From: Isoetes taiwanensis
Lineage: Eukaryota; Streptophyta; Lycopodiopsida; Isoetales; Isoetaceae
Assembly: GCA_021234155.1 (NCBI GenBank)
Contig: JAJEKV010000003.1
Location: 25,268,874-25,332,873 of the forward strand
Reading direction: 5' to 3'
Length of the DNA: 64,000 bases
Below are positions 7,214 to 35,096 of the stretch, in pieces (positions within the stretch are counted from its first letter, which is position 1; every line of letters begins with the position of its first letter). A program made the position numbers and the translations under genes. The notes beneath the pieces were generated by a model. The model was not told the origin of the DNA. It ran no database searches and saw nothing but the letters and a program-made list of their open reading frames with translations.

Positions 7214-7214
7214 G

Positions 7215-7226
7215 TGGTATCAGAGC
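7215..7226 (+). promoter_or_regulatory. Primer binding site, initiator-Met tRNA type
   Basis: TGGTATCAGAGC starts one base after the 5' LTR end and matches the usual plant iMet primer binding site used by most Copia and Gypsy elements. It sets the plus orientation of Element 1. Confidence 0.95.
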
Positions 7227-7406
7227 AATGTTCTTGGAGACCAAGAGCAAAGCACTGGCCATGCTCCCAGTAGTACTAACTTGATAGGATTCTCAAACCT
7301 CGAAAATGGGAAAATTTTTTCTCATTTTTGTAGTTTATGCTAAGCTAGTAACAGTTAAAGTGAATGAGAACATAAAAAGAAAAAAATTAGTGAGCCAACT
7401 AGGATG

Positions 7407-7440
7407 GTCTCACACGTCGCGCCAGGACAGATAATGAGAG
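7407..7440 (+). repeat. Half of the family's leader hairpin
   Basis: GTCTCACACGTCGCGCCAGG and the following bases match one arm of the 67 bp palindromes found four times in Element 2. The second arm is missing here, so the hairpin is broken in Element 1. Confidence 0.75.
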
Positions 7441-10400: not shown

Positions 10401-11300
10401 GATTCAAAGAACAACTGCAGAAGAGTATTGCCAAAGGAATCGCGCACAGCCTCAAGAGACGCCTCCAAATAGCTTCAAGTATCATGAAGGGGAGAACAAT
10501 TACCGCCCGAGAACAGGATCAGGAAACAGACTGAAATGTCGAAGCATCAACGACCAGCACACCTTTCGTTAGAATGTGATGCAAAGCGTGTTGTGCCATA
10601 GTCCACAAACATCGGAGGGCCCAAGTATATCAACAAGTTACCCCGGAGTACGAGCCGACGTACAAATAGGAGGATATAGATCGTCAACACCATTGCACCA
10701 GGAGGAACACCGATGACATTGCCAAGGAGTGGGTGCGCAACTCGAAGGGAGGCATAAGAGAGACCTAATAGCTCTAGTAGTAATTGTAATTATGTAAGCT
10801 ATATGTTTTGCATGTATAGTTCCCTTGTTATTCCTTCCCTCCCATAGCGTAACAGATCAAAGGAAGAGATGTCATGCAAGTTGCAGGGGTGAAGCAATCA
10901 ACATCGTCAACACTCTTTGGGCAACACGATAACGACAAGAGGACTCGACGTATGAGACATCGATGGAGTCGAAGAAACAATATCGGATACAGAGTCGTCC
11001 TTTAGCTGCCAAGACAAAGAGTTCAAGATGAAAGATCTCTTTCAACGGCGCCACCTTCAGGCATTTGAAAAGCGGCATGCAAGATTCAAGTGATCAACTA
11101 CACCATCAAGCCACCAGCAATGAGAGGCTTCTAGCGAACAAAGTCAACCTCTACTTCAAAGAGCATCCACCGTCAAGGAGACTGAAGTATCGAGCGACTC
11201 GGAAGAACGTTACCTTGCTCCTTCAAGCAGGCAACGAGTGGATGAGCTTCTAGCAAGCTCAAATATCTAAGGCCACGGGGCCTAGTAGGTTAAATATATG
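7441..11300 (+). pseudogene. Element 1 central region: decayed, unrecognised coding sequence
   Basis: The sequence is purine-rich with short coding-like runs in changing frames, for example an AARAILLAYRAQNVVGEPF segment near 7680-7740, an EELEAQLLEDIEVPANVQTN segment near 7805-7865 and a 125-codon ORF at 8104-8481. Other open frames (8727-9026, 9860-10132) are short. I see no zinc knuckle, protease, RT or integrase signature, and no clear histone segment. It is probably a lost element-specific protein or captured host sequence. Confidence 0.4.
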
Positions 11301-12740
11301 GACGGTAACATCCATATTGGGATTAGAAGGCAATTCCGGATATTCTCGTTGAAAGGATTGCCCAATTGGGAAGGAAACGCATAGGAGTAACTAAAATTAT
11401 ACACGATTGTTAACAGACATCCAACATATTGAAACCACTTGGTGAGATTGATCACCTCGCTAAGAAGGAATCATTACTAGGATAATTGTTGACCATGTAT
11501 AAATCTAGTATCTCCAAAAGAATAATCCAACCGAAAGAAAAAAAGTAATCTAACAAGTCCGGCCAACTTGTTACGATGACATCAATTCGATTGGTAGGAA
11601 TATTCCAAGAGTTTAAATAACTAAGAAAGGGGGAATCTCTAGAATAATAAAAGAATAGTACATGCAAGGTACATCTAAAATAAGAATTATAGTAATCAAA
11701 TAGTCTTTTGAGACAAAAGGAATTGTCGTCATGACAAAACCTTGTGGTTTAGAATCGTTCTAACTAAGTAGATAACCCGTAACTATATTGAAATAAATGA
11801 TAACATAATATGTATATCCATCTTAGGTGGTTATATATGTTAGCTAAGGCTAGTAACTTAATGCGCTAAGTAAGAAGCGTATAACCTCTCAAGGGGAGAG
11901 AATAGATATGATGTTGTGTACAACGTCGTTGAAGGGGTGCAGGACCATTTTCTTTTCGAAGAAAGTGGGACGGCTCAATCTTATGATTGAACGTACTTGC
12001 ACCGAATTGACGGACCCGTAGAATAGAGTTCACTCCGGCAATGGCCGAAGCGAATAGAGCGTAAGATAGATAGATAGTTAGCTCAGGAGGCCTTCAACGT
12101 GCGAGACCGACATGATAGCTAACTACACCAACGAAGTGGAGCAAAACCATGAGAGCAATGCAACGACCAAGTCATCTCCAAAATTACTCGACGCCGGCTC
12201 AATGGGTGGATGCGTTCTAGCCTTAGGTAAGGTGTGCGCATGCATTATAAGCTTTAATGTGTCTTATAGATAAGTTAAATATAGATCTTAATAACTGAAT
12301 AGAAATTGTTGTATGTATATGTATCATAGGGAAATAAGTTAAATAACAACGATAATATGAGGTAGCATGTTAATTAATCCTTCGCAAGGACGCAATTCCT
12401 TCCAAGGATAGCTATATGACCTCGGGGTCCTTATAAATATAGATAGAAAATAGAATTCGGATATACTTAAGTGCATCTTAGGGATATACTTCCAAGGGTA
12501 ATGCAGGACCCAAGGAAGAGAATAAGAAGCACATCTAATTCTTGTGTATAATAATTAAAACCTTGTCTATGATACAATAGGTCTAAATCAGAGTTATTGT
12601 TTAAATAATCGCGATCTAAAAGTCGTTAAATATTGTAAAGCTTAGAGTAAATATAATTGTACTATCGGAAGTAATGTATCCGATACTATGATAATGTTAA
12701 TTCATAAATATTACCTTAGGGTAATTATGTTAATCACATG
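11301..12740. other. Element 1 AT-rich non-coding segment
   Basis: I see no open frame of interest here. The sequence is AT-rich with scattered short direct repeats and passes into the 3' region shared with Element 2 from about 12740. Confidence 0.5.
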
Positions 12741-13309
12741 CATTAAAGGAGCCAGCAAAAATCGGCTCAGGCATGTCGATTTGTGTAGATTAATTCTATG
12801 TGTAGTTAAGATTAATCTGCGCATGCAACCTATACTAGGTATGGGTTGCATGCGTTGTTACCGATGATGAGACCACTACGGTGATCTCTAGGGCGTGGTG
12901 TAATGCCAATGTAGGCATGACCGCGTTTCCGCTTGGACGAGTGGAAGTTAGAAAGTCTACTTCTGTTCTATGGAAGTAGACGACCTCGAGAGAAAGGATA
13001 GGAAAGGCACCTTTAGCCCCATATATGCTTTGATAGGAGGAATCTATCCTTCACGCCCCCCACGCGGGAAGGATATCCTCCACGCTGGGCAACTAGAGGT
13101 GTAGGCATGAGCGGCATATAGTCATAATAGGACGCTGTCTCCACGGCCACGATGGAAGAATCATCCTCTTCCTACGTCGGGAGATTAGCCATGCATTCAT
13201 GTAGATAGGTGGGGTGGTCACCATATAACCAAAATTTTTGTAATAATTAATAATAGGTAGGGTCGACCTGCAGGCCTAGAGCGCTCCGGAGGGCAAGGAG
13301 GTCGAGCTA

Positions 13310-13850
13310 CGAAGGCTTGCAACACAAAATTTTGTATAATGTGTTGCAAGGGATGAAGAGTACCTTAGAAGTGTAAATTTTGTAGGAAATTGATAAACTT
13401 TGATAAACTTAAATGTTGTATTAAGTAAGGTTAATAATTACTTTGCGTGGATTAAGTTATGAAGTGATAAGTTAACTGGATAATGAAATAGTACAGTAAT
13501 GTCTTAAACATTACCTTAGAGTAATTCTAATAATTAAGATAGTAAGTACATAATTATAGATATTGTAAAATTAATGCAGGATTTTAAGGTGCGAAGACTT
13601 GCAACACAAATTTTGTTGGAATGTGCTGCAAGGAATGAAGAGTATCTTAAATAATAATTGTATATGAAAGTGTTAAATTGTGATAAACTAAATGTTGTGA
13701 TAATAGAAACTAATAAGTACCTTGTTTTAGTAGAAGTTACGAATTGACAACTTATTTGATAATGTAATGGCGTAATAATGATTTAAAAATATTACCTTAA
13801 GGTAATCGTAATAAATGTGTAAGTATTATAGTAGTATATCGTATGCATCA
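13310..13850 (+). repeat. About 275 bp tandem duplication in the Element 1 3' region
   Basis: Two consecutive units each begin near CTTGCAACACAAA and contain TGCAAGGNATGAAGAGTA and an ATTACCTTA block (about 13313-13585 and 13592-13850). Element 2 has a single unit (about 23400-23670), so the duplication is specific to Element 1. A more diverged copy of the ATTACCTTA part lies near 12700. Confidence 0.7.
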
Positions 13851-13876
13851 GGTTGATTGCAGGTTAGGAAGAGTCC

Positions 13877-13930
13877 AAGGTGGGGAGACCCACGATCTTT
13901 GCCGACGACATCATTTCAAGGTGGGGAGAA
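13877..13930 (+). promoter_or_regulatory. Duplicated polypurine tract
   Basis: AAGGTGGGGAGA occurs at 13877-13888 and again at 13918-13929, the second copy directly abutting the 3' LTR. The distal copy is the likely plus-strand primer. The same duplicated arrangement exists in Element 2, where the spacer is an 18 bp perfect palindrome. Confidence 0.8.
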
Positions 13931-15659
13931 TGTGGCGTTCCGGCACAATATCGTTCGGGACATATCTTGCATCTGCCTCATCACGCCGCATTACACGCCA
14001 CCCCACCCCGTGGCGTGTATGCCAACGTGTAGCCAGGCTAGTAGCCCTAGGGGGCAACTTGCAAGGAGTGTGCATTTAGTAATGTGCACATTAAACCATG
14101 TGCACATTCACTTAGGTGCACATTTTCCCATGTGGCCACTTTATGCCAAGTGGGCCATACCCATAGGTGCAATTAATGTGCACATTTTCCAATGTGCACA
14201 TTCATTAATGTGCACACATTTCCATGTGAGCACAATTGGGTGCACACATTTCCATGTGAGCACAATTGGGTGCACACATTTCCATGTGGGCACATTTGGC
14301 CACCTAGCCCTTAAAAGGCAAGTGGGCCCATTTCCAATTATCCCACATGCCTAAAGGGGATAATTGGAAACCCTAGCCAACCCCTTGTCTATTTAAGTAG
14401 GGGAACCCTAACTTGCCCATTTTCGTTTTCTAGGGTTCCAGAGCTCTGTTTTGGCTGCCCCAAGGGTCAAAACCATCTCCCAGACGCTGTCTGAGAGAAT
14501 TGCATCATTAGTTTCCCTTGATTCGAGCATCTCAGCAGGATGGTCGAGCTCAGGTCAGGAGGAGGAACTCAAGGATCAGGTATTTAGGCAATTTAATAGT
14601 CTAAACCCCATTTCAGCCATCAAATCAGTAGGTTTAGCCTCTTAAATTGCCCATAGCAACCCTCTAGATCTCTAGATAGCAGATTCTAACTAAAGAACCT
14701 AACTCTATGATATAGATTAGATCTAGTTCTTTAGTTCTTCTGTGATGTATATGGATGATGTATCTCTGTGAACTCCTTGTATTGGGAAGGGGGGTAGAGA
14801 GTTCAAGCTTGGTAGTAGATGCTCCTCTCTCTAGCACACCATAGATTCGGCCTGTGTACAAGAGCCACACCTGGTTGTGGGTGAAGGGGCGGAGGCCGGG
14901 CTAAGAAGGAGATTCATGTGTCGACTCTTGAAGCGATCCCCGGTGTGTAAAGCCTACCGGGGATCATTGTGACTAGGTCGATGGCTTGCCAGCTGCGTGT
15001 GGGCAAGGCATGGGCTCAACACCGAGTGAAGTGGTGTTCACTTTCCGATGGGTTCGGTCCGAATAAGGGCGGTGGCTCTCTAGTCACCTTGAGTCGCATG
15101 TAGATCTCGGAGGGAGTGATCCCTTCACGCCCCCATCGAACCGGGAGGATGAAACCCGGGAATAGCCCTTTTGGCTATGCATCCGTGGGCTCTGATCAGG
15201 TCCCAACACTTTCCAGCCTACTCGCAAAGTGTGCACAGGGAGGGGCGGATGGAGTGGACAACCCTATGCCATGTTCTTATGCCGACCAAATCCATTGCCA
15301 TGAATTACATGCGCAATGAACTCACGGAGACCCAAGCCGCCATCATCCCTTTGAGTCTGAGCCTTGGGTAGGATTCCCTATGTGACGTGCTGATCTTTGT
15401 CTATGCAGATATGTGGAGGACCATCCTTCGTGATGGTCATATGATGTTGATGTATGTACTACTGACATGTATGTTTACGCTTCCGCAGCTAGGTAGGCCC
15501 TGAGGGAGACAGGGTAAAGGACCCCTTCATTCTTCCCACTGGAACTCTTCAAGGTTGCAGTGATACGTGGAGGGCCCTATATTAGCATGGAGCTGGTATG
15601 GGGGATGAACTCCTGTTTGTATACGGTGAGTGCACCGTATGCGAGTAGGGGACGTCACA
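13931..15659 (+). repeat. Element 1 3' LTR
   Basis: It is nearly identical to the 5' LTR over long stretches (for example 15351-15659 versus about 6901-7213). It differs in one extra about 30 bp TGCACACATTTCCATG repeat in U3 and in a tract at about 14880-15350 where differences cluster at CAG/CTG sites. The start is TGTGGCG rather than TGTGACG. Confidence 0.95.
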
Positions 15660-21660: not shown

Positions 21661-23334
21661 TGTGACGTCCCCTACTCATATATGGTGCACTCACCGTATA
21701 CAAACAGGAGTTCATCCCCCATACCAGCTCCATGCTAATACAGGGCCCTTCACATGACACTGCAACCGTGACGGGTGCCAGTGGGAAGAGTGAAGGGGTC
21801 ATTGCACCCCGTCTCCCTCAGGGCCTACCTAGCTGCGGAAGCGTAAACATACATGTCAGTAGCACATACATCAACATCATATGACCATCTCGAAGGATGG
21901 TCCTCCACATATCTGCATCGACAAAGATCGGCACATCACATAGGGGATCCTACCCAAGGCTCAGACTCGAAGGGATGACTGACGGCTTGGGTCTCCAGAG
22001 TTCATTGCGGACAGAATTCATGGCAATGGATTTGGCTGGCATATGAACATGGCATAGGGTTGTCCACTCCATCCGCCCCTCCTGTGCACACTTTGCAGAG
22101 TGGGCTGAAAAGTGTCGGGACCTGACTGTAGCCCGCCGGATGCATAGCCAAAAGGGCTATTCCTGGGCTCATCTTCCCAGTTCCGATGGGGCAGGTAGGG
22201 ATCACTCCCTCTAGAGATCTACATGCTGACTCAAGGTGACTAGAGGGCCACTGCCCGTATTCGACTGAACCCACTGGAAAGTGAACACCACTTCACGGGT
22301 GTCGAGCCCATGCCTTGCCCGCACGCAGTGACAAGCCATTGGACCTAGTCACAATGATCCCCGGTAGGCTTTACATACCAGAGGGATCGTTCAAGAGTCA
22401 GGACATGAATCTCCTTCTTAGCCAGTCTGGCCCCTTCACCCACATCCCGATGTGGCTCTTGTGCAGTGCCGAATCCACAAGTGTGCTAGAGAGGCTACTC
22501 TAGGAGCATCAACTACCAAGCTTTTAGGTCTCTACCCCCTTCCCAATACAAGGAGTTCATAGAGATACATCATCCATATACTTCACAAAGAACTAAAGAA
22601 CTAGATCTAATCTACAACATAGAGTTAGGTTCTTTAGTTAGAATCTGCTATCTAGAGATCTAGAGAGCTGCTATGGGCAATCTAAGAGGCTAAACCCTCT
22701 CGATTCTATGACCCAAGTAGGGTTTAGACTATCTAATTGGCTCAATACCTGATCCTTGAGGGGCTCCTCCTGACCTGAGCTCGACCATCCTGCTGAAACG
22801 CTCGAATCAAGGGAAACTAAGGGTGCAATTCTCCCAGGCAGAGTCTGGGAGGCGGTTTTGGCTGTTGAGGCAGCCAAAACAGAGTTCTAAAGCCCCCTAG
22901 AAACGAAAATGGGCAAGTTAGGGTTTCCTACCCTATATAGACAAGGGGTTGGCTAGGGTTTCCAATTATCCCCTTTTGGCATGTGGGATAATTGGAAATG
23001 GGCCCACTTGCCTTTAAGGGCTAGGTGGCCAAATGTGCCCACATGGAAATGTGTGCCCACATTAATATGTACATTGGAAAATGTGCACATTAATTGCACC
23101 TATGGGTGTGGCCCACTTGGCATGAAGTGTCCACATGGAAATGTGTGCCCACATTAATGTGTACATTGGAAAATGTGCACATTAATAGTTGCACATATTT
23201 CTGGCAAGTTGCCCCCTAGGGGCTACCCACCTGGCTACACGTTAGCGTACACGTCGGTCGGAGTGGCGCGGTAATGCGGCGTGGCAAACAAAGATATCGT
23301 CTTGGGACCGTATCTTGTCGCCCGGAACGTCACA
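21661..23334 (-). repeat. Element 2 3' LTR
   Basis: It has TGTGACG...(A)CGTCACA-type termini and the TGTGCACA-like motif cluster, plus a TATA box (CTATATAGG on the minus strand) near 22940. It differs from the 5' LTR near its outer U3 end (23270-23330), where CTG/CAG sites are again altered. Confidence 0.93.
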
Positions 23335-23390
23335 TTCTCCCCACCTTGAAATGATCTTTGTCCAAAGATCGTGGGTCTCCCCACCTTGGG
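23335..23390 (-). promoter_or_regulatory. Duplicated polypurine tract around an 18 bp palindrome
   Basis: On the minus strand AAGGTGGGGAGA occurs twice (about 23378-23389 and 23336-23347), the latter abutting the 3' LTR. Between them lies GATCTTTGTCCAAAGATC (23353-23370), a perfect inverted repeat. Element 1 keeps the two tracts but not the perfect palindrome. Confidence 0.8.
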
Positions 23391-24239
23391 ATCATCCTAA
23401 CCCGCAATCAAGCGACACATACGATAACTACTATAGTATTTACACATTTATTAAGATTACCTTAAGGTAATATTTTTAGGACATTATCACACCATTATAT
23501 TATGAAATAACTTATCAATTCATAACATCATTAAAACAGGTTACTCAATAATTCACTTAACATGACAATTAAGTTTATCAAAATTAAAATTAACGTCCGG
23601 GGTCTCTTCATTCCTTGCAACACATTCCAACAAAATTTGTGTTGCAAGTCTTAGATCTTCGACCTCCTTGCCCTCCCGGGGCTCTATTGGCTCAGCAGGT
23701 CGACACACACGTTAGTATCATTTAATTATTAATAAAATTTTTGGTTATATGGTGACCACCCCACCTATCTACATGGATGCATGGCTAATCTCCGGCAGAG
23801 GAAGAGGGTGAATCTTCCATTATGGCCGCGGGAGGCGGTAGCCTATATGCCTATATGCGCTCATGCCTACACCCTAGTTGCCCGGCGTGGAGGATAGGTC
23901 CTTCCGTATATGGGGCGTGAAGGCCCGATTCCTCCTATCAAAGCATATATGGGGCTAGAGGTGCTTTTCCTATCGGTGCATTCCTTCATGACCTCCTTTC
24001 TCTCGAGGTCGTCTACTTCCGTGGGACGTAAGTAGACTTTCTAATCTACCTTCCACTCGCCCAAGTTTTTAAACGCGGTCATGCCTACATTGACATTACA
24101 CCACGCTCTAGAGATCACCGTAGTGGTCCCATCATCGCCGGTAACACGCATGCGACCCATACCTAGCATAGGTTGCATCGCGAGATTAATCTTAACTATA
24201 CATAGAATTAATCTACACAAATCGACATGCCTGAGCCGA
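23391..24239 (-). other. Element 2 3' non-coding region
   Basis: It is homologous to Element 1 at about 12740-13870, including the 16 bp palindrome ATTACCTTAAGGTAAT (near 23456). No ORF of interest is present. It separates the chromodomain from the polypurine tract. Confidence 0.7.
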
Positions 24240-24400
24240 TTTCTTGGAGATGACCTTGCCGCCCCATTGCTCCATAAACCGTGGGACTTGCTTTACTAAA
24301 TCTTTCTTAAGTACCCCGTTGCGTCTTCCACGGTAAGTGTTTCCACTTGACCAAATCTTGGAGGAATTCTCGATCTCCTCGTTTTCTTGAAAGCTTTATC
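24240..24400 (-). pseudogene. Chromodomain remnant of integrase
   Basis: Across three frames the minus strand keeps chromodomain pieces: KKTRRSR, then EFL and LVKWKHLP, then DLVKQVPRFMEQWG. In chromoviruses this domain follows the integrase GPY/F module and targets integration to methylated histone H3 (usually K9). Frameshifts and stops interrupt it here, some of them at CTG-like sites. Confidence 0.65.
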
Positions 24401-24641
24401 GAGAATCAATTACGGAACTATTTCCGGTGCTACTCGTCATTTCCAACAACGTTGGAGTGTCCAAGACTTCGTCTGGATTTGGAGTATGCTTCTTCAACAA
24501 ACTCACGTGGAAGACCTTATGAATCTTTAGGTGTGCTTGAGGCAAGTCTAGCTTGTAGGATTGATTACCTACTCTCTTGACTATTACGAAAGGTCCAGCC
24601 CACCTTGGAGCAAGCTTCTTGCAATTCCGATCCCGAGCCAC
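24396..24641 (-). pseudogene. Integrase GPY/F module
   Basis: The open segment contains WAGPFVIVKRVGNQSYKLDL and HKVFHVSLLKKH, the canonical C-terminal GPY/F module of Ty3/Gypsy integrase. It overlaps the preceding integrase frame and is separated from it by a frameshift. Confidence 0.9.
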
Positions 24642-24948
24642 TTTGCTTCACCTTGATCTTGAGCCAAACATCATCTCCAACTTTGAACTCTCTTACCGTT
24701 CGATGCTTGTCGGCGATGCTCTTTTGTCGACTTCTTGCTGCTAGCAGATACCCTCGAACTTCTTCCACAAGCTGCTGCATATCGGCCAACATCTGCTGCG
24801 AAACTTCCACCTTGGACACGGGGTTGTGCCAAGTGTCCGGAGTTAGGCACTGATAGCCGTAATTGATCATAAATGGCGACATTTGGGATGATTCCTGCTT
24901 GGTGCTATTATAGGCAAACTCCACCAAGTGAATAAATTCTTCCCACAT
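24565..24948 (-). pseudogene. Integrase C-terminal core region
   Basis: It encodes WEEFIHLVEFAYNSTKQES followed by SPFMINYGYQCLTPD and a KFKVGDDVWL-like segment, typical of the end of the integrase core and linker. It lies downstream of the DDE fragment and is broken from it by an in-frame stop near 24960. Confidence 0.9.
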
Positions 24949-24960
24949 ACCTTGCTTATT

Positions 24961-25212
24961 CTAGACATAGTTTCGTAGCATGTCTTCCAAAATCCTGTTG
25001 GTCCGCTCCGTTTGGCCATCCGTCTGTGGATGATACGCCGTGCTCATGGATAGCTTCGTCTGGATTGTCGCAAAGAGGTCTTGCCAAAAGGCGCTCATGA
25101 ACTTCGGATCCCTGTCGGAGATAATCTCCCTTGGCATACCATGAAGCCTAAAGATCTCTTTGGTGAAGAGCATTTGTATCCATAGTCTGTATCGTGGTCT
25201 TGCAAGGCACAA
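24961..25212 (-). pseudogene. Integrase catalytic core, second Asp and Glu
   Basis: It contains IISDRDPKF (second catalytic Asp) and [20 protein letters not shown] (catalytic Glu), the D-35-E half of integrase. A frameshift separates it from the first-Asp segment. Confidence 0.92.
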
Positions 25213-25486
25213 AATGTGCCATTTTCGACAACTTGTCGACTACTACCATCAAAGCATCTTTCCCTCTTACGGTCCTTGGGAGTCCTGTGATAAAATCCAT
25301 GCTAATTACCTCCCACTTAGCATTTGGCACCGCTAATGGCTCTAAAGCTCCTGGAATTCGAAGCTGCTCTGCCTTCGTCTGCTGACATAGCTGGCATTCC
25401 TTGATGTAGCGAGCTACCTGCTTCTTCATTCCGGCCAATAATAGGCTAGCAAGACTTTTGAAATATGTTTTCATGAATCCCCGCAT
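25148..25486 (-). pseudogene. Integrase zinc-binding tail and first catalytic Asp
   Basis: It has CQLCQQ (Cys pair of the HHCC zinc module) and WEVISMDFITGLP with the first catalytic Asp. The His pair (GHAGIHENI) lies at the end of the preceding frame, so a frameshift splits the zinc module. Confidence 0.92.
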
Positions 25487-25979
25487 GGCCAGCTATTGGA
25501 ACATTCAAGCGCGTGTCGTGGAGGATCAATTTCCTTACCCCTGATGATTCGGGTACGCACAACTTGTTCTTATGGTACAACAGGTTGCCTTCCTTCTTAT
25601 AATGTTTAAAGGCTTCCCGCTCCTTATCTGTTCTAGCCTCCTTAGAGAGGCTTGCCCATACTTCCCTGAAATCCACATCCGTTGGCAAGGAATCTTCAAT
25701 CTTCTTACCAAAGTCGCTGGAGAGGTTCGAAATTGCATTGCAATGCACTCTAGTTGTCAGGGGATGCCTTGAAAGCGCATCCGCTACCACATTGAGCTTC
25801 CCTGGCTTGTAGACTATATCAAAGTCGTACTCTTCAAGGAACTCCATCCACCTTCTCTGTCTCAGGTTGAGGTGTGGTTGCGTGAATACATATTGGAGGC
25901 TCTGGTGGTCTGTATCCAACTGGAACTTCCTTCCCAAAAGGTAGTGCCTCCAAATTCTTAATGCCCTGACAACCGCCAA
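25446..25979 (-). pseudogene. RNase H C-terminal half and start of integrase
   Basis: It contains AVVRALRIWRHYLLGRKFQL, the DTDHQSLQ motif with an RNase H acidic residue, VYKPGKLNVVADALSRHP, and then the integrase GHAGIHEN His pair. The upstream RNase H half (25980-26160) is scrambled by frameshifts, though AYDSVKMNDAK and PTHDR remain visible. Confidence 0.9.
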
Positions 25980-26366
25980 GCAATTTCGATCATGCGTGGG
26001 GTAGCGTGTTTGGCGTCGTTCATCTTCACGGAATCATACGCTACCGCTGGCGCTCTTCTTGCATAAAACCTTTGCTTTTGTAGCTATCTTACTCGCGTCA
26101 CGCTACAAGCTTGTCTTTCTCGGGTCAGAAGCAAGTTAGGGGTTAGGGGGCGGTTGTTAAAGCTTCCTTCAACAATTCAAACCACTGCTTGGGCTTTCTT
26201 GTGCCAATGCTCTGCCCAATCTTTCACTTTCTCCGCCCTCGTCAAGTCGGTTACCTGGGCCGCTATCTTGGCAAAGTTCTTCACGAACTTCATGTAGTAC
26301 CCTGCTAGGCCGAGAAAACTCCTGACTTCATGCACATTCTTGGCGCCCGGCCCTTTGGTGGCGGCT

Positions 26367-26567
26367 TCAATCTTTCTTGGGGTCGTCGAGATGCCTTACG
26401 TTGAGATCACATGACCTAGATACTCCACCTTTCTCATTTTCTTGAAGTGGCGCCGACAACTTGGCGTACAACTGGTGCCTCTTCAACTTCTCCAGCACTC
26501 TTCTCAAGTGTTGTACATGCTCTTCAAGGGATCTGCTATACACCAAAATGTCATAAAAAAAAAACAA
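26367..26567 (-). pseudogene. RT palm end and thumb remnant
   Basis: Reading resumes with [20 protein letters not shown], the sequence that normally follows the xxDD catalytic box. The box itself is damaged: the preceding frame ends FVIVFFL and this one opens MFFFYDI, next to a run of ten A (plus strand). The second catalytic Asp pair is therefore not intact in this copy or assembly. Confidence 0.85.
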
Positions 26568-27942
26568 TCACAAAGGTGTCTAAAAACTCCCTGAAGATGT
26601 CGTTCATGAGCCTCATGAACGTCGCGGGGGCATTCGATAAGCCGAAAGGCATTACCGTGAACTCATAGTGCCCATACCGCGTTCTGAAGGCGGTCTTATG
26701 GATATCTTCCTCCTTTATCCTGATCTGATGATAACCTGACCTTAAGTCGATTTTGGAGAAGATTCTTGCTCCTTGTAGCTGATCCATCAAGTCATCTGAT
26801 CTGGGGAGCGCATACTTGTTCTTAATGGTGTGCTTGTTCAACTGCCTGTAGTCTATGGACATTCTTAAACTGCCATCCTTCTTCTTTACAAAGAGAATGG
26901 GCGCTCCAAATGGTGAAACACTAGGTCTAATGAAACCTAGGTCAAGCAGCTCCTGCAACTGCTTCTTTAGCTCCGACAACTCCTGCGTTGTCATTCTATA
27001 TGGAGCCTTGCTTGTTGGCTTTGTTCCCGGTTCGAGTGCTATCTCGCACTCGACTCCCCTATAGGGAGGAAGCTGCTTGATCTCATCTGGAAAGAGATCA
27101 TGGAACTCCGTGATCAGCTTAGCTATTTGCTTCGGCAACTTGCTGAGCACTTTGTCTTCTTTGCTTCCTTCCGATTCCGGCTCACTAATCTCAAGCTTGA
27201 AGATGTATGCCACTTGCTCACTCTTGATGCACTTGAACAGCCGTTTAGAAGACATACACTGCATGATGGGAACAACTTCCTTACCTGTTATCTCAATGAT
27301 CTTGCCGTCGGGTGTTGGGAAGGTCACCTTCCGCTTTCCACAATCGATAATGGCCCCTGCTGGTCCAAGGTACTCCATTCCTTTGATCAAGTCATACTTG
27401 CCAATGCCCATTACTTCTGCCCCCATCTGGATATTAATCCCTGGCAAGTCGATGTCGAAGTTGATTCTCTTGCCTGTTGTCTGCCTTACCGCACCACTTG
27501 CTAAGACGACGGGCCTTGGCTTTGACTTCAATGGTTTCAACTTCAACATTTGAACCATTCTGGGGGATGCAAAGTTATGACTACTTCCTGAGTCTATCAA
27601 GACTATGAAGGACTTGGTCTTGGCCTTCCCTACTGTGGAAATTACCTTATACTGGCTTTCTGCTTGCTCTGTATCTATTGTGGCAAAGATATGGCACTCA
27701 CCCCGAATGTAGCCGCGGGCTTCTTCGTCGTCATCGTCAGACAGAGCGTCCCAATCTCCCAACTCCGCTAGTGCTGCACTCATGACGTAGGGGCAGTTTG
27801 CTGTCCTATGGTCTGGCTGGAAGCACCTGAAGCAAAGCTGCTTTTCTATGCACTCCTGTCTCTTTTCCTTGGGCATCACCTGCAAAAAGGATCGCACTGC
27901 TTTGGAGTAGTTTGACCCCTCCTGCTTGTCCTTGAAGGACAC
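26551..27942 (-). CDS. Gag zinc knuckle, aspartic protease and N-terminal reverse transcriptase
   Basis: The 463-codon frame carries a CCHC zinc knuckle (C37, C40, H45, C50), an acidic linker, an aspartic protease with IDSGS (Asp117) and a Ty3/Gypsy RT starting near residue 295. RT motifs include [19 protein letters not shown] (344-362), [11 protein letters not shown] with the first catalytic Asp (D399) and [12 protein letters not shown] (431-442). It ends at the catalytic YxDD box through a homopolymer frameshift. In an intact element this is part of the Gag-Pol polyprotein acting in the virus-like particle. Confidence 0.93.
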
Positions 27943-27999
27943 CTGCTTCTTCTCCTGCTGCTTCCCCTGGTTTCCACTATGCGAGGCTCTAGCTGGACC

Positions 28000-28410
28000 T
28001 GGACTGGCTGCCCTAGGGCTATAGCTTCCTGTTGCCTTGCCTTTATCCTGGAAATACTAACGCTTCACGCCCACTATTTAGGGTCAGACCCCGCAAGCTT
28101 ATAGCCTTGGACTCGCCGATCTTGTCTTAGGGTTTATTGCCCGACAACAAAAGCGGATCTCCTTATTCAACCCCTCAATATAACTTTCAACCGCATGCTT
28201 CTCTCCCAACTTTGGCACATCTGACCTTAGCCTCATGAATTCCTCTGTATATTTACGACTGATTTGTTTCCTGTTGGAGCCTATAGAACTGCCTTTGCAT
28301 CATCTTTGGACTTATGTTCCTTGGAACGTAATGGCGCTTTTGAAGGCTTTAGCAAACTTCACGAACTTACAAGCATCCCTCGCTTAAGCCATGTGCCTTT
28401 GCATAACCCT
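28000..28410 (-). pseudogene. Gag capsid C-terminal part, frameshifted
   Basis: Short segments such as EFMRLRSDVPKLGEKHAVES and IEGLNKEIRFCC appear in different frames between the capsid ORF and the zinc knuckle. This matches the end of the retrotransposon gag domain (helices before the nucleocapsid). Several stops interrupt it. Confidence 0.65.
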
Positions 28411-28950
28411 TATACCAAATCCGTGCGGCTCCTTTCAAGTTGGTCATTTGCCACTCTTCCTTTGTCTTTATCCTTCATGCCATAAGCATTGCCGTACTCA
28501 CTCATTTCATCCAGCCATGCCTCTGCTTCTAATCGACTATTTCTCCCAGAGAACTGATTTCGATTCCGGGCCTTCCATACATTGCCCAGTGCGGAATCTA
28601 CCTTCTTCTGGTAGTCAGAGGTCCTGGTGTCTCTTTGTCGTCCTTCTGGGGTGTTCCTCTGCCTTCCCTCTTCGGTGTTCCTTTGCCTTCCATCTGTTCG
28701 GTCCTGGGCCTGCTCTTCTTCTTCCTGAGGTCGGTCCAGAATCACGAACTTGAGTCGGAGGAATCCGAAATTTGGGGGATCTCCTTCTCTTGCTCCTCTT
28801 CTTGTCCCTTCCTGTTTTCCGAGCCGATGCTTGTGGCAATTGAGCATTGCCCACCGAACCTGCTCCTGCTTGTGCGGACAGCAAGGCCTTTATCTGCTCA
28901 AGGTCCGTCCTCATCTGGGATATCTCCTCTTCTGGGGTCATGGGTTCCAT
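28410..28950 (-). pseudogene. Gag N-terminus and capsid, one frameshift
   Basis: The frame from 28950 opens MEPMTPEEEISQMRTDLEQI, a short coiled coil and a basic stretch. A frameshift near 28780 moves reading to the 28410-28847 frame, which holds a charged RQRNTEEG repeat and the capsid start LEAEAWLDEMSEYGNAYGM. The WLxxM-type helix is typical of Ty3/Gypsy Gag. Gag forms the particle that packages the RNA. Confidence 0.75.
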
Positions 28951-29225
28951 ATCTCAAAGCGGGTTCCTTGCGAGGGGGTGGTGCAGGCGGGTCCGTTCTT
29001 CTATAAGGTCTCGCAGTTGTCGTTCCCCTGCGTATAGGCCTCTAGCTGCATACACAAGTGATTCATGGCTATATGGTTAGTTTCCTTTGTTCTCTTGCAT
29101 TGTTTATGTTTGTTGGTATAATTGTGGGGCAAAAATACATCAACAAAACATTTAAAGTGCAAATGTAATTGTATTTATATATCATATAATATTTTAGTAC
29201 AAAAGTTTAGGGATCAAGAGTCTAA

Positions 29226-29885
29226 CTAATCTTGAAATCGTAGGTAAGGCGGGTTGTCTTCAAGAAACTTCTTAACTTGGGCCGTCCCTACCGAAAGTGA
29301 CCCAAGTTCTCGATGATGCTTGCCGACGAGCCTCCCCTGTAAGGCTCTCACCAAGTCTTCTACCCCGCGGTCGGATGTAAGGGCGCATGATCCGTAATCT
29401 CGCCCGGCGTCGATGGGGTATGGCGAAGTCGAAGAGGTCGAGTGCCATTGCTCTCTTGACCGGGACAAAGATAGTCGACATTTGCCGCTATCGCGAGCAT
29501 GCCCTGCCGGCTTAGAGAGTGCAATCAGCATGAACACCCCTTCCTCCCCTCTGGGACTGAACTTCCGGTGTATTACCGCTACTCTTCCATCCAGCATCAG
29601 CGGCAAGTAGTACCTGAGCGACCTGTCGTTGTGCGTCGCGGATGATTCTCCACTTGTTTGGCCTTCCGCTCTGTGCCGCCCGGCGTACTCGTCGACCTCT
29701 ATCTCCGTCAGCTCCCGGTAGTCTTCAATTGTGCGGTCGACCCTCCTGAGGTCGATTCCTTCTCCTCTTGCCGGGGGTGGTGTCGAAGGCCTGGGCATTA
29801 GGATGCTCGTGGTCTTCCCACGGATTCCCATCTGTTCTTGGAGGGCGAGGAATTCCTCCTCTATTGGCAGCTCCCGCTCGTCCAT
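29226..29885 (-). CDS. ORF3: possible histone H4-like protein, probably frameshifted
   Basis: The 219-codon ORF lies directly 3' of ORF2 in the same frame, separated by TAA ATC. By eye its second half resembles H4 in order: LSKPAGHAR (124-130) against the H4 ITKPAIRRLAR region, and LTSDRGVEDLVRALQGR (169-185) against the H4 TAMDVVYALKRQGR helix. The H4 alpha-2 equivalent is visible only in another frame (from 29481, STIFVPVKRAMALDLF), which implies two compensating frameshifts or assembly errors. The N-terminal 110 residues and the last 30 are unrecognised. The H4 reading is tentative and leans on the neighbouring H3 and H2B-H2A ORFs. Confidence 0.45.
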   Translation of the reverse strand: MDERELPIEEEFLALQEQMGIRGKTTSILMPRPSTPPPARGEGIDLRRVDRTIEDYRELTEIEVDEYAGRHRAEGQTSGESSATHNDRSLRYYLPLMLDGRVAVIHRKFSPRGEEGVFMLIALSKPAGHARDSGKCRLSLSRSREQWHSTSSTSPYPIDAGRDYGSCALTSDRGVEDLVRALQGRLVGKHHRELGSLSVGTAQVKKFLEDNPPYLRFQD

Positions 29886-29891
29886 GATTTA
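29886..29891 (-). promoter_or_regulatory. Single in-frame stop between ORF2 and ORF3
   Basis: ORF2 ends AGG TAA ATC and ORF3 starts ATG, all in one frame. Stop readthrough or reinitiation could link the two proteins. Alternatively AG|GTAAAT resembles a 5' splice site. The sequence alone does not decide between these. Confidence 0.5.
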
Positions 29892-30752
29892 CCTGATGCT
29901 GTTGTAGGCTTGGATATCGGAAGTCGCTTCCCCTGTGTAGGTGTCGGCTTCCCTCACTTGAATTGGAAAGTCCGAGACTCCTCGGACGATGAAGTCGTCC
30001 ATGTCGGTCTGCCGCAGTTGGTGGAGCAGTTCATCCAATCTGAGCTCCCTCTCCCTGCATTCGGGAAGGTTCTGGATGTCGCTTAGGAGTAGATACTCCT
30101 CCCCGTTGATGATGATAGGGGCTAGGCTTGTGATGCCTAGCCCGAGTGGGGGAGCAACTCTGATGCCCTGCCGGCTCCGCTCGAAGTTGATCAGCTCCTG
30201 CTCTACTTGGCGCCGTTCTTCATCTGAGTCGAGCTCCGTGTATTCCTCGTCATCTGACTCCTCTTCTTCTTCCTTTGCTTCTTGCTCTTGCTGATACTGC
30301 AGAAGCATTTGCTCTTCTGCTTGGGCTGCTATGGGGTCCACGTCCATCGGAGGGATAGAGGTTGCCCCCATCGGGTTTTCGGCGCGGTGGGATAAGAAGA
30401 TGGCTAGGGCTGCGGTGTAAGAGAAGTACTTGATCCTGTTGGCTGTCGAGACCATGTAGTCAGGCAGCCTCTGCGCCTTGTTGGTTAAGTACTTGGCGAT
30501 GTTGGGGACATCGCCCAGGGTTGCTTGAAGGGATGGCCGGGGAACGAAATATCCTATGCAAGGAGGGACCTGAACAAGGGAAGGTCCTACCCTAGCTTGG
30601 AACTCTGCTAGGACTTGCCTATATGCTGGGGTTGCGTTTAGCGTAGCTTGGATATCAATTTCTTTCCCAAAGACTTGGAAGATGTCGTTGACATCTGCCT
30701 CAGCAGCATGGGCACTGGCGCTGTACCATCGGCTGAAGTCAGCAGTGGCCAT
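29889..30752 (-). CDS. ORF2: histone H2B-H2A doublet-like protein
   Basis: The open frame has 287 codons. Residues about 10-62 resemble the H2B fold: VNDIF (21-25) matches the H2B FxNDIFE helix, followed by an N..T...R.. pattern like the H2B NKKPTITSRE loop. Residues about 75-127 resemble H2A: LQ, then NIAKYL and AQRL (84-96) match H2A GRIARYL...AQRV. An acidic stretch (about 128-190, with EEEEESDDEE) interrupts the fold, and RVAPPLGLGI (198-207) plus NGEEYLLLSD (216-225) match H2A RIxPRHxQLAV and NDEELxKLLGD. The C-terminal 60 residues are unrecognised. H2A is well supported and H2B moderately. A fused H2B-H2A order is known from histones of Marseilleviridae giant viruses. The function as element chromatin protein is inferred. 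Confidence 0.75.
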   Translation of the reverse strand: MATADFSRWYSASAHAAEADVNDIFQVFGKEIDIQATLNATPAYRQVLAEFQARVGPSLVQVPPCIGYFVPRPSLQATLGDVPNIAKYLTNKAQRLPDYMVSTANRIKYFSYTAALAIFLSHRAENPMGATSIPPMDVDPIAAQAEEQMLLQYQQEQEAKEEEEESDDEEYTELDSDEERRQVEQELINFERSRQGIRVAPPLGLGITSLAPIIINGEEYLLLSDIQNLPECRERELRLDELLHQLRQTDMDDFIVRGVSDFPIQVREADTYTGEATSDIQAYNSIR

Positions 30753-31050
30753 TGATCTAGCAAGGAAGGGAGTGACAGACGGATGCAGAAGCGCCTCAAG
30801 GAGCTGGAAGATCGCCTAAGCAGTGGAGAGCAAATTTGCAGGTGCTAATTGAGAAATGGGGGACTTATTTATAGAGTTGGGGGAAACCCTAATTTTTGGA
30901 TGACCTAGAATTTACTGAGGCTAGGCAATTTTGATCTATTAAGGGATGCAATTGCAAGTTTGAAGACTATTTCTAGGGTTTGAGCATGCTAAGAACACTA
31001 ATGAACCTATTGCAGCAAACTGGAGATCATTTGGTGAAAAATGATACGAG
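30753..31050 (-). other. ORF2 leader
   Basis: About 300 bp of non-coding sequence separate the downstream hairpin pair from the H2B-H2A start. A TATA-like tatttatag lies on the minus strand near 30875, about 120 bp upstream of the ATG, so ORF2 might have its own promoter. Confidence 0.4.
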
Positions 31051-31116
31051 GTCTCACAGTTGCGCCCAGACCGATTTTGAGAATCTCATTTTCTGTCCTG
31101 GCGCGACGTGTGAGAC
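31051..31116. repeat. Hairpin copy A (66 bp imperfect palindrome)
   Basis: The arms GTCTCACAGTTGCGCCCAGA and, on the opposite strand, GTCTCACACGTCGCGCCAGG face each other around a short A/T-rich centre. It belongs to a set of four in Element 2 and lies 3' of the H3 ORF. Confidence 0.9.
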
Positions 31117-31248
31117 ATGGGTCCTAATTGGGCTATACTTACTCAATTTAAGTGATCTAAGGCTGTAATTCCACTAAACTCGTCGAGTTAGGCAGAATTG
31201 ACCCCTTATTTGGTCGATTTGGAGCTGTTTTGGGCATTTTTGGGCATG

Positions 31249-31315
31249 GTCTCACACGTTGCGCCCAGCCCGAAAATGAGAATCTCATTTTCTGTCCTGG
31301 CACGACGTGTGAGAC
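31249..31315. repeat. Hairpin copy B (67 bp imperfect palindrome)
   Basis: Same architecture as copy A, 198 bp away start to start. It lies about 145 bp beyond the 3' end of the H3 ORF and retains the GTCTCACACG / CGTGTGAGAC ends. Confidence 0.9.
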
Positions 31316-31459
31316 ATCGTCTCAATTTTTGCTCAAAAGCTCTAATTTGACTAAAACAAAAGCTAGAATTCTATACTTAACTTGATTAAGCTTGATCAGA
31401 CATGTTATTTACTTCCAAAATTCTTTATATTAACAAAATTTACAGTTATTTACAAAATC

Positions 31460-32776
31460 TCAAGGGCGTTCTCCCTTGATGTGCCTGGCAAGATACATAT
31501 CCTGCCTCATGAGGGTAACCCTCTTCGCGTGCACCGTGCAGGCCGTTGAATCTTCAAAATGTTGCACTATTTTTGCCTCTGCTGCCTCCTGTAGGCACAA
31601 CAACATTTCGTCGATTACCCGCATGTCCGTGTTGTATTCTTGCATGACTTCACGAACCAAGCGTTGGAACGGCGCCCGGGGGATCAAGAGTCCGTAACTC
31701 TTCTGGAAGTGGCGGATCTCCTTGAGGGCTCTGTCCTCCAACTTCTTCTTCTTGCTCCGCTTCTTACCTGGTGCTCGGGGAGGCTTGGGCCTGGGTGGCG
31801 GTGGCTTCAAGGTCTGCTTTGGGGGTACTCCACCTTCAACTGTCCGCACCCGATGCTCCTGAAAGTAGGCATTGTATGCCTCCCACTTCTGCATATAGGA
31901 GTTGTGCTCCCTAAGTCTCTTCTGATAGACCTTGACAGGGTCTATCACATACGCCTCCCGTTGGGGTCGCGGGGCCTTAACCCTGTCCCACGTCGGGAAG
32001 GGTGGGGGCTTCGCCAACTGTCCCGCCTCCTCCTGTTCCTGTGCTTCCTGCTCAGGGGTTTCTTCCTCTACGACCGGGGGTTTTGAAGAGCTTGCTCCCT
32101 CTGCGCCAGGCACGTAGTCTTCATCCGAGTCGTCGGTAGAAGGCGGGGTCTCCTCTCCTGACGGCTCGTTGATGACGGGACCCACTGCTCGCTTCCCGAC
32201 CTTCACCACTTTCCTTTTGCCTGCCTTGATGGCTTTGGCCTTTCTCTTCTTTGGCCCGCTGGCTGTTGTCGGGTCGTCTTCCCGACTCTTCGTCCTCTGC
32301 TCCCGGCGGCGCTCTTTAGCTTCATACTTGCAGATGAAGCATGCAAGATCGGCTTCTTCATCCGGGGTGAGTTCCGGCGGCTCTTCTCTCCCTTGCTCTT
32401 CCTGCAGGTGTATCTCAGCCTGGGGTTGCTCCTGGGTTGTTGATTGGTCTGCCTGCTCCCTCTGCTCCTCCGGTGGGTTGGTGTTCTCCTGGGGTTGCCC
32501 CTCGGGTATTGGCTGCCCCGCCGGCTCCCATTGCTCCCTGGTCCTCTCCTCCTCCACAGCGATCTCCTCTAGGATCTGGTGCATGATGTCCCGCCGGTCG
32601 TCCTCTACGAGCTCTGTACGGTCGCTCTGATCCGATCTTGCATCCTCGCTCGAAGAAGATTCGCCTTCCCGGAGAAGGCGTTCTTGAAGGATTCTCCGAA
32701 AGATGCCGGAACCGCTGGCGCTGGAGGATTCGCTCCCACGAGGCTTCCGAGCAGTTTGCTTTGTACGGGCCATCAT
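31460..32776 (-). CDS. ORF1: retrotransposon-encoded histone H3 with long charged linker
   Basis: The open frame has 438 codons. After two Met codons it reads ARTKQTARK, identical to histone H3 residues 1-9 including K4 and K9. Residues 351-438 align without gaps to the whole H3 fold (from LREIRRYQKS to the GERA end): about 49 of 88 identical by eye, including [21 protein letters not shown] and a terminal GERP. Loop 1 has canonical H3 length, so it is not CenH3-like. Between tail and fold lie about 340 residues rich in Glu, Gln and Pro, with basic runs [15 protein letters not shown] (175-189) and GKKRSKKKK (337-345) that look like nuclear localisation signals. The second ATG has a better context (G at +4) and would yield an Ala1 N-terminus after Met removal, as in H3. 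It sits between two hairpin pairs. Confidence 0.95.
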
Positions 32777-32957
32777 TTTACGGTTCGTCGATCGGAGCTG
32801 AGCGCCAGAAGATCGCCTTGGCGAGTATGAGCAGAGTTCTAAGGAAGAACGCGAAAATGGGAGGGGTCTAGGTCTATTTATAGGGCCTATTTTTAGGTCA
32901 ACTTTTAAACTACCTTTTTGGGTTGCCTAAAGCATCTAAAACACCTAATTAAGCAAG

Positions 32958-33024
32958 GTCTCACACGTTGCGCCCAGACCGATTTTGAGAAAGTCATTTC
33001 CTGTCCTGGCGCGACGTGTGAGAC
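32958..33024. repeat. Hairpin copy C (67 bp imperfect palindrome)
   Basis: It is the first hairpin upstream of the H3 start codon (about 180 bp away), with the same arms and orientation as copies A, B and D. It lies close to where an ORF1 promoter or leader structure would be. Confidence 0.9.
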
Positions 33025-33157
33025 ATGGTGGGGCCCACTACTAAATTTTGTACTTTTTTGAACCTGTAACATGCTAATTCTACTGATTCTTAGCTTAAAA
33101 TTAGAATTATCAAGTTATTTTACTGTAATTTACAACTTTTTGGTGTCAAAGCTGAAT

Positions 33158-33224
33158 GTCTCACACGTTGCGCCCAGCCCGATTTTGAGAATCTCATTTT
33201 CGGTCCTGGCGCGACGTGTGAGAC
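33158..33224. repeat. Hairpin copy D (67 bp imperfect palindrome)
   Basis: It lies 200 bp start to start from copy C, in the leader about 205 bp after the 5' LTR. Element 1 keeps one arm at the equivalent leader position (7407-7440), which shows this is an ancestral leader feature. Confidence 0.9.
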
Positions 33225-33415
33225 CACCCTACTTTTCGGGATGTTGGCTTACCAATTTTAGTCTTTTTACATTTTTATTCATTTTACTGTTACTTAGCTT
33301 AGCATAACTACAAAAATGAGAAAAAATTTTCCCATTTTTCGAGGTTTAAGGATCCTATCAAGTTAGTGCTACTGGGAACATGGCCAGTGCTTTGCTCTTG
33401 GTCTCCAAGAACATA

Positions 33416-33427
33416 GCTCTGATACCA
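33416..33427 (-). promoter_or_regulatory. Element 2 primer binding site
   Basis: GCTCTGATACCA on the plus strand is the reverse complement of TGGTATCAGAGC, the iMet primer site, one base from the 5' LTR boundary at 33429. It fixes the minus orientation. Confidence 0.95.
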
Positions 33428-33428
33428 C

Positions 33429-35096
33429 TGTGACGTCCCCTACTCATATACGGTGCACTCACCGTATACAAACAGGAGTTCATCCCCCATACCAGCTCCA
33501 TGCTAATACAGGGCCCTTCACATGACACTGCAACCGTGACGGGTGCCAGTGGGAAGAGTGAAGGGGTCATTGCACCCCGTCTCCCTCAGGGCCTACCTAG
33601 CTGCGGAAGCGTAAACATACATGTCAGTAGCACATACATCAACATCATATGACCATCTCGAAGGATGGTCCTCCACATATCTGCATCGACAAAGATCGGC
33701 ACATCACATAGGGGATCCTACCCAAGGCTCAGACTCGAAGGGATGACTGACGGCTTGGGTCTCCAGAGTTCATTGCGGACAGAATTCATGGCAATGGATT
33801 TGGCTGGCATATGAACATGGCATAGGGTTGTCCACTCCATCCGCCCCTCCTGTGCACACTTTGCAGAGTGGGCTGAAAAGTGTCGGGACCTGACTGTAGC
33901 CCGCCGGATGCATAGCCAAAAGGGCTATTCCTGGGCTCATCTTCCCAGTTCCGATGGGGCAGGTAGGGATCACTCCCTCCAGAGATCTACATGCTGACTC
34001 AAGGTGACTAGAGGGCCACTGCCCGTATTCGACTGAACCCACTGGAAAGTGAACACCACTTCACGGGTGTCGAGCCCATGCCTTGCCCGCACGCAGTGAC
34101 AAGCCATTGGACCTAGTCACAATGATCCCCGGTAGGCTTTACACACCAGAGGGATCGTTCAAGAGTCAGGACATGAACCTCCTTCTTAGCCAGTCTGGCC
34201 CCTTCACCCACATCCCGGTGTGGCTCTTGTGCACAGGCCGAATCTACAGTGTGCTAGAGAGGCTACTCTAGGAGCATCAACTACCAAGCTTTAGGTCTCT
34301 ACCCCCCTTCCCAATACAAGGAGTTCATAGAGATACATCATCCATATACTTCACAAAGAACTAAAGAACTAGATCTAATCTACAACATAGAGTTAGGTTC
34401 TTTAGTTAGAATCTGCTATCTAGAGATCTAGAGAGCTGCTATGGGCAATCTAAGAGGCTAAACCTACTGATTCTATGACTGAAGTAGGGTTTAGACTATC
34501 TAATTGGCTCAATACCTGATCCTTGAGGGGCTCCTCCTGGCCTGAGCTCGACCATCCTGCTGAAACGCTCAAATCAAGGGAAACTAAGGGTGCAATTCTC
34601 CCAGGCAGAGTCTGGGAGGCGGTTTTGGCTGTTGAGGCAGCCAAAACAGAGTTCTAAAGCCCTAGAAACGAAAATGGGCAAGTTAGGGTTTCCTACCCTA
34701 TATAGACAAGGGGTTGGCTAGGGTTTCCAATTATCCCCTTTTGGCATGTGGGATAATTGGAAATGGGCCCACTTGCCTTTAAGGGCTAGGTGGCCAAATG
34801 TGCCCACATGGAAATGTGTGCCCACATTAATTTGTACATTGGAAAATGTGCACATTAATTGCACCTATGGGTGTGGCCCACTTGGCATGAAGTGTCCACA
34901 TGGAAATGTGTGCCCACATTAATGTGTACATTGGAAAATGTGCACATTAATAGTTGCACATATTTCTGGCAAGTTGCCCCCTAGGGGCTACCCACCTGGC
35001 TACACGTTAGCGTACACGTCGGTCGGAGTGGCGTGTACGCGTGACGAGGCAGTACAGTATACGTCCTGGGACCGTATACTGTCCTGGAACGTCACA
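33429..35096 (-). repeat. Element 2 5' LTR
   Basis: The 1668 bp LTR has termini TGTGACG/CGTCACA and is nearly identical to the 3' LTR over most of its length. U3 (34795-35096) holds the TGTGCACA-like motif cluster, and the TATA box CTATATAGGG lies near 34700 on the minus strand. Confidence 0.95.

Follow-up and report, generated by a model that had tools for sequence, protein, structure and literature searches.

What would a retrotransposon do with a core histone? The question is raised by a long terminal repeat (LTR) retrotransposon, here called Element 2, in the genome of Isoetes taiwanensis. It lies on the minus strand of a 64,000-nucleotide stretch (contig JAJEKV010000003.1 of assembly GCA_021234155.1, positions 25,268,874 to 25,332,873) that we call the window, and all positions below are those of the window unless another sequence is named. 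The original prediction was that three extra open reading frames (ORFs) between the 5' LTR and gag of this element encode a core-histone set, namely an H3, an H2B-H2A doublet (ORF2) and possibly an H4 (ORF3). The three ORFs are indeed present in that interval (Table 1), and the first encodes a real H3; however, we found one histone, not four. We judge it somewhat probable that a family of Ty3/gypsy chromoviruses captured a host H3 gene, which it carries together with ORF2 between the 5' LTR and gag, and that the protein works as an element-specific H3 variant. To our knowledge, no retrotransposon-encoded histone has been described before, and this element would be the first.

A single H3 gene in a Ty3/gypsy chromovirus

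The ORF at 31460-32776 matched the Pfam Histone family (E=5e-26) and histone H3 chains in the PDB (E=4e-29). Its protein begins with an exact ARTKQTARK, continues through a long charged linker and ends in a C-terminal H3 fold; the canonical tail thus stands at the start of the protein and runs through K9, after which the sequence is non-canonical. The fold can be aligned along its length to nucleosomal H3 and is identical to host H3 at 52 of 92 positions (57%). The shared residues include C110, H113, A114, R116, D123, L126, I130, R69, R72, R83 and K115, which we take to be H3-H3' and DNA contacts.

The carrier has all the hallmarks of a Ty3/gypsy LTR retrotransposon: two LTRs bounded by TG...CA, a primer-binding site, a purine-rich tract and a target-site duplication matching at 4 of 5 positions. 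Its domains follow the order gag, protease, reverse transcriptase, RNase H, integrase. In the window copy the H3 ORF is open, and gag, pol and ORF2 are fragmented. The prediction was right in that an LTR retrotransposon encodes a real H3, and in that this is unusual.

The remainder of the predicted histone set did not hold up. Neither ORF2 nor ORF3 matched a Pfam core-histone family at E<=1 or a PDB histone at E<=10, and a profile built from six ORF2 sequences found no match in a PDB search. Instead, the two ORFs share one frame with a single stop codon between them, and both align to the same 501-residue protein, P0121 (44% and 40% identity), the only relative returned by a database search with ORF2 and itself without a Pfam match at E<=10. 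Frames of 528-529 codons corresponding to ORF2 recur in other copies within the genome. Similarity to P0121 is lost over a stretch inside the ORF3 piece, which marks further damage to the window copy there. By these alignments, ORF2 and ORF3 represent a single protein of about 500 residues, cut in two within one frame and without detectable histone similarity; an AlphaFold model of the ORF2-type protein was of low confidence (predicted local distance difference test score, pLDDT, 35.6). A full core-histone set, in which ORF2 would be an H2B-H2A doublet and ORF3 an H4, retains the H3 as its one standing part and is refuted at the sequence level for the others, leaving it with a negligible probability. 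The idea that the element could build nucleosomes from its own proteins alone is likewise not supported: since ORF2 and ORF3 show no detectable histone similarity, the host would have to supply H4, H2A and H2B.

The H3 ORF is multiplied with the element

The H3 protein was compared with its own genome (1,658,258,908 bp in 1,110 sequences), and the best 96 loci were scored among 12,901 first-look candidates; the corresponding searches scored 136 of 12,065 candidates for ORF2 and 92 of 32,872 for reverse transcriptase. By manual count, 64 of the 96 first-listed H3 matches were free of stops within the matched stretch. At least 33 of these 96 loci were followed by an ORF2 match at 681-904 bp and at least 17 by a reverse transcriptase match on the same strand at 3.5-3.9 kb, and none had a nearby ORF2 or reverse transcriptase match in the wrong order or on the wrong strand. 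Similarly, at least 20 of the 136 ORF2 loci were followed by reverse transcriptase, with the wrong order or strand in 2. Because only the top-scored matches were listed, these co-occurrence counts are lower bounds.

We also approached the family from the opposite end, by taking the first 20 reverse transcriptase matches without a listed H3 match and reading one 2-kb upstream slice for each. Twelve of the 20 slices contained the H3 fold, in some cases across frameshifts; another (L065) showed the H3 N-terminus, and L063 carried ORF2/ORF3 on the right strand. A one-off capture or an assembly artefact can be rejected on the strength of the 96 scored loci, the 12 slices with the fold and the 1,051 tail sites described below. 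The H3 ORF thus belongs to a highly multiplied element family and is not a single-copy capture; its absence from all other copies, named as a refuting outcome with the original prediction, was not observed. A database search for relatives of the H3 protein, with 8,000 candidates scored, was dominated by host H3. Separately, four canonical host H3 genes lie within 0.3 Mb of one another (contig C1025, about 2.98-3.28 Mb).

An exact H3 1-9 tail in diverged surroundings

We surveyed the tail in the window copy, 20 fetched ORFs and the 20 slices, and recognised it in 28; two slices (L055 and L061) have it damaged or absent, and the remaining slices had no visible tail, its position falling outside the slice in many of them. 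Twenty-four of the 28 tail-bearing copies had the exact 10-residue start, and the ten codons were spelled in 21 ways among the 28. In one sublineage (L051, L054, L068), about 50-60% identical to the window protein, the exact tail is followed by RRPGE.

A degenerate pattern for the 10-residue tail occurred at 1,051 genomic sites (516 + 535), compared with 0 for a reversed control; at least 5 of the listed sites are canonical host H3 genes, so that the 1,051 include a host share. Twelve listed sites with spellings unlike those of the host and the window lineage were read for 410 bp each. All 12 continued into mutually different sequence that is not canonical H3, 6 of them without a stop in 136 codons, and a decayed H3 fold was found downstream of the tail at one site (L081, E=4.4e-10). 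Because the sites were found by an exact pattern, their exactness is ascertained; the informative part is the diverged surroundings, with nine residues kept in many spellings.

The H3 fold is under strong purifying selection

We estimated the ratio of nonsynonymous to synonymous substitution rates (dN/dS) by the Nei-Gojobori method for 19 of 21 window-lineage ORFs, the two broken ones being dropped. The fold had a ratio of 0.035 (dS 0.635), the first 17 codons one of 0.134 and the linker one of 0.168; the overall value was 0.139. The comparison with other genes of the element comes from a sister lineage, lineage A, rather than from the window lineage. There, the ratio was 0.054 for the H3 fold (17 copies), 0.036 for capsid (14) and 0.024 for reverse transcriptase (4), followed by 0.088 for a small ORF (12), 0.125 for the H3 N-terminal module (17), 0.145 for ORF2 (16) and 0.190 for protease (11). 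The ranking between lineage A genes is less affected than the absolute values by the choice of intact copies. Purifying selection on the H3 fold is thus comparable in strength to that on the capsid and reverse transcriptase of the sister lineage, and on our preferred reading the protein is still required by the element.

These values bear directly on whether the H3 ORF is a passive hitchhiker, a captured gene copied with the element and without function. Functionless captured fragments are common in transposons. Nonetheless, fold ratios of 0.035 and 0.054 at a dS of about 0.6-0.7, together with a tail kept across 21 DNA spellings, argue strongly against it, and we regard it as very improbable.

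Related lineages and the origin of the capture

Two related lineages, A and B, were characterised from 20 stretches fetched around the best Pfam Histone matches with long open frames. Their folds are closer to host H3 than that of the window protein: over the same 92 positions, 79 (86%) are identical in lineage A (L010, one copy) and 81 (88%) in lineage B (L023). In both lineages the H3 tail is replaced by another N-terminal module (MPRFKLT or METPKQV; L009-L027), and a search of 5.8 billion proteins returned none related to the lineage A module. A motif search recovered an ORF2-type frame in 17 of the 20 stretches; in L012, gag directly follows the H3 ORF. The ORF2 of the window has homologues in lineages A and B, at 24-27% identity over the aligned pieces. 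A further small ORF of about 175 residues (L027:2442-2966 and relatives) lies between ORF2 and gag in lineages A and B; it has no confident Pfam match and was matched in most of the A and B stretches and not in the window.

A tree of the H3 domain (92 columns) joined C1 with C2 (100/100) and A with B (96/91), and does not separate one capture from two. However, a homologous ORF2 usually follows H3, and a segment of the window LTR is present in 19 of the 20 lineage A and B stretches. Together, these two observations favour a single old capture of the H3-ORF2 pair, as judged from sequence comparison. An origin from CENH3, in which the loop joining helices 1 and 2 (loop 1) is longer, was considered separately and is not supported, as the window protein has no loop-1 insertion and aligns to host H3 there without gaps. 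The tree contains no true CENH3; database entries so named that were examined had near-canonical H3 domains.

How an element-encoded H3 might act

The H3 fold common to the lineages, its capsid-like and reverse transcriptase-like constraint and the largely kept contacts favour a model in which the protein acts as a variant H3 and forms pairs with host H4. Pairing would rely on conserved H3-H4 and H3-H3' interfaces; the element H3 would then sit on DNA, whether cDNA, provirus or target site, bearing its added N-terminal module. In the window lineage, the exact H3 1-9 peptide, with R2, K4, R8 and K9, would engage host H3 writers and readers, and this engagement could tilt silencing or integration in favour of the element. 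Judged by the chaperone site described below, lineages A and B look competent for deposition; the window lineage looks less so, yet it alone keeps the K4/K9 peptide. On our boldest reading, H3 serves the family in two roles: lineages A and B would deploy it as a nucleosome variant, the window lineage as a variant or mimic whose tail is live. Chances appear even that this is a retroelement depending on its own core histone, in which the H3 variant joins host H4 on cDNA or target chromatin and one branch addresses the H3K4/K9 machinery through the exact 1-9 peptide.

Several observations weigh against this model. The absence of the tail from lineages A and B means that it is not universal in the family, and in two slices (L055 and L061) it is damaged or absent. 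The H3 ORF opens with ATGATG (Met-Met, at 32771-32776), as do 16 of the 28 tail-bearing copies, so the tail need not have a free alanine at its N-terminus; whether it does depends on use of the second Met. The AlphaFold model of the H3 ORF was poor (pLDDT 52.9, predicted template modelling score 0.24). Five of the 20 slices selected by reverse transcriptase contained no H3, ORF2 or ORF3 within their 2 kb, and in L053 ORF2/ORF3 lie on the strand opposite the reverse transcriptase. At one tail site (L082), there was no H3 fold in the 451 bp read downstream. The dN/dS values are biased low because the copies were chosen mostly among intact high scorers. Finally, the site SAVL of host H3 reads EMLL in the window protein, FAIL in lineage A and HAIL in lineage B, a point that counts against the window protein in particular; SAVL is identified as an H3 chaperone site in PMC9145170.

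The altered chaperone site of the window lineage also speaks for a histone mimic or decoy acting outside nucleosomes, which would titrate host H3 writers, readers or chaperones and so weaken silencing of the element; its targets could be H3K9 methylation, H3K4 readers or H3-H4 chaperones. Retention of the 1-9 peptide while the following sequence diverges fits such a role as well. However, the fold is more constrained than the first 17 codons (0.035 versus 0.134), and in lineages A and B the fold is the only part retained, so we consider a decoy possible and on the whole unlikely.

Alternatively, the protein could be a particle or integration factor that condenses cDNA inside the particle or anchors the pre-integration complex on chromatin, possibly in concert with the integrase chromodomain. 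The H3 ORF does sit in a chromovirus, and the constraint on its fold resembles that on capsid and reverse transcriptase. The chromodomain of the family was read in one sequence, the lineage B relative L028 (Pfam Chromo, 7.7e-8); it stands at the C-terminus of the integrase and is decayed in the window copy. In L028 it reads KWKHLP, and in an alignment to what we take to be the HP1 sequence, aromatic cage residues one and three are absent. This fits the description of group II chromodomains, which lack the first and third aromatic residues and whose partner is given as unknown in PMC3350952; hence a simple reading of the element's own methylated K9 by the integrase is not part of our proposal. 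The missing cage residues argue against a particle or integration role, as does the fact that the window H3 ORF and ORF2 have putative TATA boxes of their own and are unfused to gag or pol. A particle or integration factor is therefore rather improbable, and the reading we prefer remains a variant H3 paired with host H4.

Relation to known systems

Selfish elements with a captured histone are already known; what is new is the retroelement carrier. A search of open-licence PubMed Central articles, judged by titles and the starts of abstracts, returned no retrotransposon-encoded histone, and the word "histone" occurs 0 times, by automated count, in the main texts of both Isoetes genome papers (PMC10541799, PMC8566536). 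The closest case in a mobile element is H3L, an H3-like gene in a hAT DNA transposon of the fungus Pyrenophora tritici-repentis (PMC3538342). As in Isoetes, a mobile element captured and multiplied an H3-like gene beside an ORF of unknown function. However, the fungal element is a DNA transposon with terminal inverted repeats and copies that scarcely differ (the reference has 10 of the long form), whereas the Isoetes element is a plant LTR retrotransposon with diverged lineages, a long N-terminal extension and a fold under strong purifying selection. We considered a hAT-type H3 transduplication for Element 2 itself and rejected it, as the element has LTRs and reverse transcriptase instead, although no dedicated hAT search was made.

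Single viral H3s are described in xenomavirus, Dishui Lake phycodnavirus, Sylvanvirus and others, along with a bracovirus H4 (PMC9145170). These too are selfish elements that encode a single core histone, in many cases extended at the N-terminus, and the proteins are believed to be incorporated into host chromatin alongside the histones of the host. Their carriers are DNA viruses or virus-derived particles, and their fold identity is given as 73-87%. Lineages A and B (86-88%) fall within or just above that range, whereas the window lineage stands at 57%, yet keeps tail residues 1-9 exactly. Among plant Ty3/gypsy elements, those of orchids carry an ORF for an AlkB-type N6-methyladenosine demethylase (PMC9289625), likewise an added, working-looking host-type domain; it is an RNA demethylase rather than a histone, and the survey covered angiosperms, not lycophytes. 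The backbone with an integrase chromodomain is that of plant chromoviruses (PMC3350952), to which the Isoetes element adds the H3 ORF and ORF2 between the 5' LTR and gag.

The Isoetes family extends virus-type histone capture to retroelements and plants. Hosts silence transposons by marking H3, and an element that keeps an H3, with the marked peptide in one branch, makes action on that substrate testable; if the model is correct, it would amount to a transposon attack on the very substrate of silencing. The family also provides H3 folds that span 57-88% identity to host H3, with the tail kept or replaced, a natural series with which to probe the features that an H3 requires for function.

Candidate promoters and other features of the window

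The features of Element 2 are collected in Table 1.

Table 1. Features of Element 2 in window coordinates
Feature	Position	Strand	Basis or remark
Element 2, whole Ty3/gypsy chromovirus insertion	21661..35096	minus	LTRs, primer-binding site, domain order; target-site duplication GGGAC / AGGAC (4/5)
5' LTR, 1668 bp, TG...CA	33429..35096	minus	against 3' LTR: 50 mismatches + 6 gap columns, 3.0%
Primer-binding site TGGTATCAGAGC, presumably initiator-Met type	33416..33427	minus	
TATAAATA, 109 nt upstream of the second ATG of the H3 ORF	32875..32882	minus	candidate own promoter
H3 ORF, 438 aa: tail ARTKQTARK (about 32744-32770), charged linker, H3 fold (about 31463-31732)	31460..32776	minus	Pfam, PDB
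TATAAATA, 121 nt upstream of the ORF2 ATG	30866..30873	minus	
ORF2, N-terminal piece of accessory protein of ~500 aa	29889..30752	minus	44% to P0121; no Pfam/PDB histone match
ORF3, C-terminal piece of ORF2 protein, severed by in-frame stop	29226..29885	minus	40% to P0121; no histone match
gag (capsid) region, fragmented	28268..28709	minus	tblastn with L012 gag-pol
Protease + reverse transcriptase, fragmented	26324..28380	minus	Pfam RVP_2, RVT_1; tblastn
RNase H + integrase, fragmented	24510..26126	minus	Pfam, tblastn
Integrase C-terminus + decayed chromodomain region	24273..24857	minus	tblastn with L028, E=1.6e-32; frame reading
Purine-rich tract adjoining 3' LTR	23335..23348	minus	
3' LTR, 1674 bp	21661..23334	minus	LTR pair comparison

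Of the 14 lineage A copies with a located ORF2 start, 13 have TATAAA 85-88 nt upstream of it; the 3 copies of lineage B lack the motif at that distance. From such motifs, the accessory genes may be separate transcription units. A common TATA box for the H3 ORF of lineages A and B did not hold, TATAAA occurring within 260 nt in only 5 of 19 copies. The background frequency of TATAAA or TATATA is 0.30 per 260 nt.

The window contains four near-perfect hairpins, each about 66 nt long (folding energy -33 to -41 kcal/mol), two ahead of the H3 ORF (about 33158-33225 and 32958-33025) and two ahead of ORF2 (about 31249-31316 and 31052-31117). The motif is also found in 7 of the 20 slices selected by reverse transcriptase, including L050 and L064, two of the five that lack H3, ORF2 and ORF3.

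Each LTR of Element 2 contains a 72-bp segment duplicated at 92% identity (34800-34963 and 23035-23198). A second element, Element 1 (5512-15659, plus strand), shares 90% and 84% LTR identity with Element 2, and neither H3 nor reverse transcriptase was found within it by profile search or tblastn; it looks like a non-autonomous relative of Element 2. The window also holds a 631-residue pentatricopeptide repeat (PPR) ORF, and many PPR genes are mentioned in the Isoetes taiwanensis genome paper (PMC8566536).

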